DNA from: Frigoribacterium sp. PhB24 | GTDB lineage: Bacteria > Actinomycetota > Actinomycetes > Actinomycetales > Microbacteriaceae | Reading direction: 5' to 3' | DNA: 64,000 nt | Assembly: GCF_003755185.1 (NCBI RefSeq) | Contig: NZ_RKIC01000012.1 | Span: 124,001-188,000 of the forward strand | Part shown: one piece after another, positions 29,452 through 50,516 of the stretch | Numbering within the stretch: position 1 is the stretch's first letter | How the letters are laid out: every line of letters starts with the position of its first letter | Made by a program: the position numbers and the translations under genes | Notes under the pieces: generated by a model | The model's database searches: none | What the model saw: only the letters and a program-made list of their open reading frames with translations | Told to the model about the DNA's origin: nothing

Positions 29452-29490
29452 GAGCACGGATCGCTCGCACACCCCGGCCACGGATCGGCC
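29452..29490 (+). promoter_or_regulatory. Pair of putative CsrA-binding stem-loops in the flgB leader
   Basis: GAGC-ACGGATC-GCTC (29452-29466) and GGCC-ACGGATC-GGCC (29476-29490): two 4-bp stems, each presenting ACGGATC as a 7-base loop, 9 bases apart. GGA in a hairpin loop with ACGGAT around it is close to the CsrA consensus. The same pair occurs in the fliH leader. Confidence 0.6.
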
Positions 29491-29521
29491 CTCGCACTCC
29501 ACCGACCCCACCGGGACAGGC

Positions 29522-29869
29522 ATGCCACTCGAATCCGTGACGCAGGCGGCGCTGCAGAGCGCCCTCGACGGTCTCTCGCTGCGCCAGAAGACGATCGCCG
29601 CGAACATCGCGAACGTCAACACCCCGAACTACACCGCCAAGCGGGTGCAGTTCGAGGAGGCGCTGGGCAGGTCGGTCGCGTCCGGCAGCGGAGCGGTCCA
29701 GGCGTCCACGTCGCGCAGCCTCGAACCCACGCGCCTCGACGGCAACAACGTCAACCTCGACACCGAGACCCTGTCGAACGTCGACACCGTGCTGCGGTAC
29801 CAGTTCGCCACGCAGGCCATGAACTCCGAGCTGACGGCCGTGCGTGCCGCGTTCCGGACGAACTCGTGA
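29522..29869 (+). CDS. flgB: Flagellar basal-body rod protein FlgB
   Basis: A 115-residue rod protein. MPLESVTQAALQSALDGLSLRQKTIAANIANVNTPNYTAKRVQFEEALG carries the rod signature ANIANVNTPNY. The C-terminus YQFATQAMNSELTAVRAAFRTNS fits the family. A GTG in the same frame at 29450, 6 bases after the sigma-28 box, would add 24 residues (VSTDRSHTPATDR...); the conserved family start and the weak GGGACAGGC site favour ATG 29522. First gene of the basal-body/switch operon. Confidence 0.9.
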   Translation: MPLESVTQAALQSALDGLSLRQKTIAANIANVNTPNYTAKRVQFEEALGRSVASGSGAVQASTSRSLEPTRLDGNNVNLDTETLSNVDTVLRYQFATQAMNSELTAVRAAFRTNS

Positions 29870-30261
29870 CCGCCTTCGACGCGATCGGCATCGCGAGCAC
29901 CGGCCTGACCGTGCACCGCAAGTGGCTCGACGCCGTCTCGGACAACATCGCGAACGTCAACACCGTCAAGTCGATGGACGACACCGCGTTCCAGGCCCGC
30001 TACGTCGAGGTGCAAGAGGGAGCCGGCACGTCCGGCGTCTTCGTCAAGGCCGACCGCTACGGCAGCGAGGCCGGCCGCGTCACCTACCTCCCCGACCACC
30101 CGCTCGCCGACGCCGAAGGGTACGTGCGCATGCCCGACATCGACCTCGGCGCCCAGATGGGCGACCTGATCATGGCGCAGCGTGGCTACCAGGCCAACGC
30201 CGCCGTGGTCGACCGTGCCAAGACGGCCTACGAGGCCGCACTCCAGATCGGACGTGGCTGA
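29866..30261 (+). CDS. flgC: Flagellar basal-body rod protein FlgC
   Basis: A 131-residue rod protein: VTAFDAIGIASTGLTVHRKWLDAVSDNIANVNTVKSMDDTAFQARYV and the C-terminal LGAQMGDLIMAQRGYQANAAVVDRAKTAYEAALQIGRG, the standard rod/hook ends. Its GTG start overlaps the flgB stop (GTGA). Confidence 0.94.
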   Translation: MTAFDAIGIASTGLTVHRKWLDAVSDNIANVNTVKSMDDTAFQARYVEVQEGAGTSGVFVKADRYGSEAGRVTYLPDHPLADAEGYVRMPDIDLGAQMGDLIMAQRGYQANAAVVDRAKTAYEAALQIGRG

Positions 30262-30617
30262 TGCCCATCGCAGGAATCCAGGCCCTCGGGGCGGTGCAAC
30301 AGTCCGGCTACGCCGACGTGGGCTCGCTCATGCGGGCCGGCGGCGCGTCCGACGTGACGGGTGCGACGGGCGTGACCGGCGCCTCCTCGGCCTCGGGCGC
30401 GACCTTCGGCGCGACCATGACCGGTGCCGTCGAGGGCCTGCAGCAGCTGCAGTCCGAGGCGAAGACCCTCGCGGTCAAGGCCGTCACGGGTGACCTGACC
30501 GACATCCACGACGCGACCATCGCGGCGACGCGTGCCCAGGTCACGCTCGAGCTGGTCAGCGCCGTCCGCAACAAGGGCGTCGACGCCTTCAACGAGATCA
30601 TGAGGATGCAGGCCTGA
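30261..30617 (+). CDS. fliE: Flagellar hook-basal body protein FliE
   Basis: A 118-residue protein linking the MS ring to the rod. The C-terminal signature reads GDLTDIHDATIAATRAQVTLELVSAVRNKGVDAFNEIMRMQA. The N-terminal half is Gly/Ala-rich. Start and stop each share a base with the neighbouring genes (TGATG), so the operon is tightly coupled. Confidence 0.92.
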   Translation: MPIAGIQALGAVQQSGYADVGSLMRAGGASDVTGATGVTGASSASGATFGATMTGAVEGLQQLQSEAKTLAVKAVTGDLTDIHDATIAATRAQVTLELVSAVRNKGVDAFNEIMRMQA

Positions 30618-49900: not shown

Positions 49901-50385
49901 GGACCGTGATCGACCGCGTGCGCTTCCGCGAGAAGACCCTGGCGTTCCTCCGGGCGCACGAGAACCACCTCGTGCTGGCCAAGTTGCGGAAGGGGTCCCC
50001 GCTGACGGAGCAGGATGTGGCGAGCCTCGAGACCCTGCTGCTCGAGAGCGGCGAGGTCGACCCGCAACACCTGGCCATCGCGGTCGACGAGGCACAAGGT
50101 CTCGGGCACTTCATCCGATCGGTCGTCGGGATGGATCGCACAGCGGTCAGCGACGCCCTCAGCGCATTCGTGGCCGGGACGCGATTCACCGGGAACCAGC
50201 TCGCGTTCGTGAACATGATCGTCGACCGTCTCACCGACCACGGCCGGGTCAGCAAGGCTCTCCTGTACGAGCCGCCGTTCACCGCCTACGCCCCGACGGG
50301 CCCGGACGATCTCTTCGAGACGGCTGTGGTCCGCGACCTCTTCCAGGTTATCGACCGCATCGACGCCTCCGCCGAGGTCGGCTGA
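46963..50385 (+). CDS. hsdR: Type I restriction endonuclease/translocase subunit HsdR
   Basis: An 1140-residue motor nuclease. An N-terminal DUF4145-like domain (about 1-130) and coiled coil (about 150-200) precede the nuclease domain with [25 protein letters not shown] (PD-(D/E)xK, about 245-270). The helicase shows [10 protein letters not shown] (about 385), [10 protein letters not shown] (about 480), LTATPKDD and [12 protein letters not shown]. The C-terminus is EcoEI-like. It cuts unmodified DNA after translocation. It carries only one copy of the dispersed word (49118). Confidence 0.95.
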   Translation: [1140 protein letters not shown]

Positions 50386-50432
50386 GATCGAACACGCGGC
50401 CCTGATCGGCCGCGGCCGTCCCGAACCCGTAC

Positions 50433-50460
50433 CTAACGCCGCGCCACCCCCGGCCGATAG
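50433..50460 (+). promoter_or_regulatory. Sigma-28 (FliA) promoter of flbD-motA-motB
   Basis: CTAACG (50433-50438), 14 bases, GCCGATAG (50453-50460), an exact consensus match right after hsdR. The codon 6 bases further on is GTA, not GTG. Confidence 0.85.
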
Positions 50461-50492
50461 TCATCCGTAGCCGCTCAGGACGAGCAGCGACA

Positions 50493-50516
50493 CCTGCCCC
50501 CACGGATGGAGGCAGG
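50493..50516 (+). promoter_or_regulatory. Putative CsrA-binding stem-loop in the flbD leader
   Basis: CCTGCC and GGCAGG form a 6-bp stem around a loop containing CACGGATGGA, close to the CsrA consensus ACA-GGATG. It lies about 30 bases after the predicted transcription start and about 25 before the flbD ATG. Confidence 0.55.

Follow-up and report, generated by a model that had tools for sequence, protein, structure and literature searches.

In other bacteria, FliW is a protein antagonist of CsrA. In Campylobacter jejuni, CsrA binds many flagellar mRNAs, including those of flgI, flgH and flgE, with the flgB mRNA hardly enriched (1.6-fold); the CsrA consensus is ANGGA or CANGGANG in a hairpin loop, and the optimum spacing for bridging by a CsrA dimer is 18 nucleotides (nt) (PMC4894983). 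Among actinobacteria, the Kineococcus genome paper reports csrA in flagellar islands and predicts a hag-like site at flagellin (PMC2587704), and a survey of actinobacterial flagella names CsrA once in its accessible text, in the list of proteins searched (PMC10746217). CsrA–FliW control has so far been known mainly as a flagellin brake. Here we describe, in a 64-kb stretch of a 3.46-Mb Frigoribacterium genome (G000; contig C4, positions 124001–188000; hereafter the window), short hairpins that are probably CsrA binding sites. They lie in the 5′ leaders of the flgB, fliH, flbD and fliC operons, all four of which have σ28-type promoters. Named relatives that share 97–98% FliF identity belong to Frigoribacterium, a genus of the family Microbacteriaceae in the class Actinomycetes. 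A first-pass annotation of this DNA had regarded CsrA control of basal-body, export and motor operons as new for actinobacteria; a role at actinobacterial flagellin has already been proposed in print (PMC2587704), and for the flgB, fliH and flbD leaders of Actinobacteria we found no description in the open-licence literature.

All four leaders lie on the plus strand, with the GGA on the coding strand, and each is preceded by a pair of boxes fitting what we take to be the σ28 consensus, which places hairpin 1 of flgB and of fliH at the predicted 5′ end of the mRNA (transcript start sites throughout are predicted from promoter patterns). Upstream of flgB (rod protein; 29522–29869; NCBIfam TIGR01396), a promoter TTACG...GCCGATAG at 29417–29443, found by a relaxed pattern scan, precedes hairpin 1, GTGAGC-ACGGATC-GCTCGC (29450–29468), and hairpin 2, GGCC-ACGGATC-GGCC (29476–29490); boxes resembling this promoter stand 5′ of flgB in most relatives inspected. 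Upstream of fliH (export apparatus; 33548–34276; NCBIfam NF004270 with E 1.6e-5, under the family cut-off, and adjoined by fliI), a promoter at 33446–33473 precedes GGTGAGC-ACGGATC-GCTCACC (33479–33499) and, again, GGCC-ACGGATC-GGCC (33508–33522). The second hairpin of each pair was found by a hairpin scan as well as by R1, a covariance model built from 67 flgB leaders, and the two GGAs of a pair are 24 nt apart in flgB and 26 nt apart in fliH; there is no GGA near the start codon of the window fliH. Upstream of flbD (50540–50926; PF06289), which is followed by motA and motB, a promoter at 50433–50460 precedes hairpin 1, GCTC-AGGAC-GAGC (50473–50485), hairpin 2, CCTGCC-CCCACGGATGGA-GGCAGG (50493–50516; stem CCCGCC/GGCGGG in some relatives), and an additional GGA, within AGGAC, at the ribosome site (50529–50533). 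Upstream of fliC (flagellin; 20313–21488; PF00669 and PF00700), a promoter at 20225–20252 precedes the hexaloop hairpin GCCC-ACGGAC-GGGC, a CANGGANG site (20265–20278), and a second GGA site, CACGGAGGAG (20297–20306), which covers the Shine–Dalgarno sequence. The fliH, flbD and fliC promoters were found by a strict pattern scan. The hairpins that the first-pass annotation had placed in the four leaders, and its GGA at the fliC ribosome site, are thus all present as described, although the fliC sites fall outside the interval that it named; flbD hairpin 1 is absent from that annotation.

A single ACGGA hairpin was rejected as proof in itself, because 31 such hairpins with at least 4 base pairs (bp) occur on the two strands of the window (18 on plus, 13 on minus); ACGGA as such is rarer than expected (98 vs. 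197), and CACGGAT alone occurs 7 times (9 expected). What exceeds chance is the pairing of the hairpins and the conservation of the flgB leader, detailed below: the tandem CACGGAT-N8-34-CACGGAT occurs three times in the genome, two of them the flgB and fliH leaders, with no occurrence of the reversed pattern. R1, which was trained on no fliH leader, picks out two leaders in this genome, that of flgB at 59.7 bits (E 1.4e-9) and that of fliH at 56.7 bits (E 6.2e-9); the next-best match scores 21.7 bits. Rfam (4227 models) gave no match over the window at gathering score; at E ≤ 10, four weak matches fell in 29400–33600, none of them across the hairpins. Two isolated occurrences can be recorded beside these: the one tandem CACGGAT pair that lies elsewhere in the genome, at G000:C2:152167-152205, is not among the R1 matches up to E 10, and a perfect 8-bp hairpin, TGATCCGG-TACGGA-CCGGATCA, lies within the fliK frame at 37446–37467.

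We compared flgB leaders from 87 genomes (16 of the genus, 31 that each represent a different further genus of the family, and 40 from other families of the class, the last drawn from the 44 fliF-positive class genomes outside the family with G330, G400, G664 and G665 left out). A script found the hairpin pair in 78 of them, the others being G014, G671, G386, G337, G684, G342, G319, G419 and G353; its 32 class pairs were reduced to 28 by excluding four judged to be other hairpins (G585, G355, G609, G329), and for G046 and G058, where the script had chosen another second hairpin, the usual pair was set by hand. This left 74 leaders, of which the 67 distinct ones entered R1. For fliC, 65 leaders with an aligned start were available (13/16 genus, 28/31 family, 24/40 class; G517, a partial match, was dropped), and 55 distinct rows were aligned.

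Across genera, the flgB loops keep ANGGA, with A, C, G or T at position 2 and the A and GGA persisting nearly always; loop length varies among relatives, and the GGA–GGA spacing is mostly 20–26 nt. At fliC, CANGGANG occurs in 64 of 65 leaders (1.65 expected; the exception is G329), and the distance from the hairpin to the ribosome-site GGA is mostly 28–37 nt. In the alignment of 55 fliC hairpins, only the fixed letters of CANGGANG are invariant, as is expected from the rule by which the hairpins were selected; the stem, which was not selected, varies freely with its pairing kept. Stem covariation, which the first-pass annotation had offered as a check, is strong in fliC (83% of cells paired vs. 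26–45% when slid; covariation 0.442 vs. 0.153 shuffled, 0/500) and only modest in flgB (76% paired vs. 29–37% when slid; 0.106 vs. 0.075 shuffled, 0/500). The flgB stems covary less because they hardly change, and in part because some families shift register to a hexaloop, GCCG-ANGGAN-CGGC, a change invisible in the alignment.

The flgB pair is kept in all 16 genomes of the genus: the leader scan recovered it in 15, and in the other one, Frigoribacterium sp. CFBP 13712 (G014), it lies farther upstream. Hairpin 2 generally ends 27–43 nt before the start codon in the genus; in CFBP 13712 the distance is 170 nt, with the promoter and both hairpins intact, and the initial listing of this genome as having lost the hairpins was therefore wrong. 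The extra length of its leader, downstream of hairpin 2, comes from a GCA-rich repeat (locus L210, 1225–1390). In the remaining family genera, all 31 flgB leaders have at least one GGA hairpin (1.6 in shuffles) and 28/31 have two or more (0.06 in shuffles); in the class outside the family, a narrower scan found at least one in 33/35 and two in 22/35. R1 was scanned over the Frigoribacterium genome itself, 299 family genomes, 80 named loci and 56 flagellated genomes outside the class, the family and outside-class scans using stricter filters that lose weak matches. At E ≤ 0.001, it matched 90 of 93 fliF-positive family genomes and none of the 206 fliF-negative ones (six of these gave weak matches, E 0.002–0.009), including 55 of the 58 fliF-positive genomes outside the training rows (three identical to a training row). 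The three misses were G189 (partial fliF, weak match with E 0.006), G274 (a 20.9-bit fliF fragment) and G197. R1 also matched 79 of the 80 named loci, some of which are the same contigs as training genomes; the sole miss, L244, starts 675 bases before fliF and hence does not include the leader. As judged from these leaders and in this sampling, the double-hairpin element is a trait of the class.

The distribution of csrA follows the same line. In the family, csrA is found in 92 of 93 fliF-positive genomes and in none of the 206 fliF-negative ones; it accompanies flagella and nothing else. In the class outside the family, it is found in 42 of 44 flagellated genomes (completeness is 80% and 63% in the two that lack it) and in 41/41 of those with at least 90% completeness. 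The other two proposed targets are narrower in their spread. The fliH leader pair, present in the window, is a copy confined to Frigoribacterium in the family sample, and the flbD hairpins, likewise present in the window, were found by a strict scan in 11/13 leaders of the genus and in 12/26 leaders from the other family genera.

A second R1 match (E ≤ 0.001) occurs in the family sample only in seven Frigoribacterium genomes (in G000, at the fliH leader) and in G083. Frigoribacterium FliH starts M-L-D-S-V (or L-D-P-V), like FlgB of the family. Elsewhere in the family, where 29 of 31 genera gave a fliH match, the 190 nt preceding that match resemble fliG coding sequence when judged by eye. The G083 copy lies before fliJ (locus L069, 17480–17680), has its own σ28-type promoter and both hairpins, and is followed by a frame of 28 codons, MTDSVFVPALGSVSSPCGWPPCTWGVCR, that ends in an ATGA overlap with the start of fliJ. 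By sequence comparison, the simplest account would be that the promoter, the hairpins and the first codons were duplicated on two separate occasions; fliH would have come under this control when the flgB promoter and leader were duplicated, and the fliH and fliJ copies would be two cases in which a regulatory leader was transferred to a further operon.

Comparison thus bears out the proposal of the first-pass annotation that these hairpins are CsrA targets, through the ANGGA loops, the fliC covariation, the spacing and the co-occurrence with csrA, and it establishes that the predicted sites exist, are conserved and go together with csrA; we infer binding by CsrA, control by FliW and the direction of the effect at flgB. 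Several observations weigh on the other side. The flgB core stems, GAGC/GCTC and GGCC/GGCC, are near-invariant; their 76.1% pairing is barely above the 74.9% of column shuffles (32/500), and three other covariation measures fall within the shuffles (106, 133 and 226 of 500). In lowest-energy folds, both flbD hairpins form, as does hairpin 1 in flgB and fliH; in the latter two leaders, however, the loop of hairpin 2 is paired with the first codons, and the fold of the longer fliC leader lacks the fliC hairpin. Folding z-scores are ordinary (−0.3, −0.4, −0.1), fliH excepted (−2.0). The fliM promoter (σ28-type, 52881–52908, 8 nt before fliM) has no canonical hairpin in the next 90 nt, and the σ28-type promoter of flgN likewise has none downstream. 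G197 is a well-assembled, flagellated family genome, and it has no R1 match. The presence of csrA in 41/41 class genomes leaves no flagellated, csrA-free control in the class, and in the phylum sample outside the class R1 matched none of 56 flagellated genomes at E ≤ 0.001 (best 0.0023), even though csrA is present in 51 of them. The flgN leader, considered as a fifth target, has a GGA in the genus but no consistent hairpin in the family leaders inspected, and we do not claim it.

Predicted CsrA is nevertheless by far the best candidate ligand for the hairpins, and explanations that dispense with it fit less well. If the inverted repeats were DNA operators of a transcription factor acting just downstream of the promoter, their near-palindromic form, good conservation and nearness to the promoter would be expected; their loop, however, is strand-asymmetric, being ANGGA with N free, its length varies, the GGA keeps to the coding strand in all four leaders, and the fliC stems change sequence yet keep pairing, so that we hold this highly improbable. 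Even less credible are plain 5′-end hairpins that stabilize the mRNA with no protein involved: hairpin 1 does lie at the predicted 5′ end, but a plain stabilizer needs no conserved loop, and the A and GGA of the loop are among the most conserved positions.

Two further alternatives keep CsrA but give the flgB leader another task. The pairing of the hairpin-2 loop with early codons (TCCGTG), seen in the folds of both flgB and fliH, could form a two-state switch that hides the start until CsrA opens it for translation, for which ymdA of E. coli offers a precedent (PMC7492729). The TCC-GTG codon pair occurs in 18/29 other genera, where codon usage would predict 2.7, and in 16/16 genomes of the genus (0.7 expected), and the copies before fliH and, in G083, before fliJ start similarly. 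Against a switch, a duplicated flgB start accounts for the copies without selection, the TCCGTG sequence is found in few class genomes beyond the family, and a synonymous-codon duplex-energy test gave p < 0.05 in only 1/31 family, 0/15 genus and 4/30 class genomes, about the frequency of the reversed-sequence control (2, 0 and 3). We regard such a switch as quite unlikely. It is also unlikely, if somewhat less so, that the flgB leader serves chiefly as a sponge, its double hairpin titrating CsrA and releasing fliC during synthesis of the basal-body mRNA. Two ANGGA hairpins with most GGAs 20–26 nt apart do resemble the C. jejuni flaA leader, a CsrA titrator (PMC4894983), and a distance to the start codon that can reach 170 nt would suit this role, but the C. 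jejuni sponge is described as flagellin mRNA and not rod mRNA, and with two copies in the Frigoribacterium genome the abundance of the mRNA would have to suffice.

Under our preferred reading, in which the hairpins bind CsrA as regulatory sites, one CsrA dimer would clamp both ANGGA loops in the leader of flgB, and likewise in that of fliH; dimer bridging tolerates a wider range of spacings than the 18-nt optimum. At fliC, the ribosome-site GGA (65/65 leaders) together with the upstream hairpin makes up the hag arrangement, so that repression through ribosome block, relieved by FliW as in Bacillus, is the simple reading; at flbD, where a ribosome-site GGA is present in 36/39 leaders, the same ribosome-blocking repression would probably operate. 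At flgB and fliH, protection or activation of the mRNA would be likelier than occlusion, as with E. coli flhDC. The pair lies outside what we take to be the footprint of the ribosome, and the 170-nt spacing in CFBP 13712, with promoter and hairpins intact, favors a role for the 5′ end, be it protection or activation of the mRNA or titration of CsrA, over ribosome occlusion. Against this, a ribosome-site GGA at flgB in 16/16 leaders of the genus (18/31 in the family and 26/37 in the class) leaves room for occlusion. On balance, we would put activation by CsrA at flgB at close to an even prospect, with repression doubtful and titration of CsrA slightly more so.

More tentatively, CsrA in the flagellated relatives of this class may be devoted to flagellar regulation and act in two opposite directions, repressing fliC and, through an old double hairpin at the 5′ end, raising the rod/MS-ring operon, served by a portable promoter–hairpin cassette. 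If this were so, unsecreted flagellin would free CsrA from FliW and thereby order more basal bodies, and lineages would copy the promoter, double hairpin and first flgB codons to new operons (fliH and, separately, fliJ). As the four marked operons of the window share one kind of promoter, CsrA may supply an assembly order that the promoters do not. The co-occurrence of csrA with fliF predicts few CsrA targets outside flagella. A defined RNA element marks the first structural flagellar operon in most flagellated genomes examined of a class.

Both csrA and fliW lie in the locus, as the first-pass annotation had stated. The csrA gene (61842–62090, plus strand; PF02599, 85.2 bits) is the sole match in the genome, and its product matches solved CsrA/RsmE chains in the Protein Data Bank (PDB), including the FliW-bound 5dmb_D; in these alignments L4, R6 and R44, which have a role in RNA binding, are kept. 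The fliW gene (15684–16088, minus strand; PF02623, E 4.4e-21; PDB 5dmb_A, E 5e-5) stands next to flgL- and flgK-like genes, the minus strand of the locus carrying flgN, flgK, the flgL-like gene and fliW. Immediately 5′ of fliC is a sigma factor gene (19190–20197, plus strand; Sigma70 regions 2, 3 and 4), which we call FliA-like from its location. Besides this gene and csrA, the locus contains fliC, fliD, fliS, flgB, fliE, fliF, fliG, fliH, fliI, fliK, a gene for a FlgE-type protein, flbD, motA, motB, fliM and a fliN-like gene. Three insertions or neighbors of other kinds were seen: between fliS and flgB (24027–28366), a 1214-amino-acid frame matching DcuS/MalK sensor kinases with a DcuR-like response regulator; between the hook gene and flbD (43649–50385), a type I restriction-modification set of HsdM (43649–45145), HsdS (45142–46212) and HsdR (46963–50385), accompanied by a HicB-like gene on the minus strand (46248–46697); and, about 1.4 kb past csrA (region 61842–64000), a frame starting at 63470 that we take from its sequence to be RNA polymerase beta (rpoB).

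Each of the described systems shares part of this arrangement. The CsrA-activated ymdA of E. coli likewise combines two sites in its leader with a competing structure close to the start (PMC7492729); in Frigoribacterium the competing structure is predicted, and the energy test gave it no support. The flhDC leader of E. coli, stabilized by CsrA, resembles flgB and fliH in having two sites near the 5′ end (PMC7652899), but it encodes a master regulator, whereas the predicted sites here stand on structural operons. Bacillus subtilis hag, like fliC here, has an upstream GGA site and one over the Shine–Dalgarno sequence, with fliW in the locus (PMC2587704, PMC7652899); in Frigoribacterium, four leaders carry candidate sites and not that of flagellin alone. 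The C. jejuni flaA leader likewise presents two adjacent ANGGA hairpins (21 nt apart) with CANGGANG-like loops, and the CsrA–FliW regulon of that species also shows compensatory stem changes and includes FliW. In C. jejuni, however, the double hairpin sits on flagellin with its second loop over the ribosome site, whereas in Frigoribacterium it sits on the rod leader, at the predicted 5′ end of the mRNA, and predicted sites are present in the leaders of rod, export, motor and filament genes alike.

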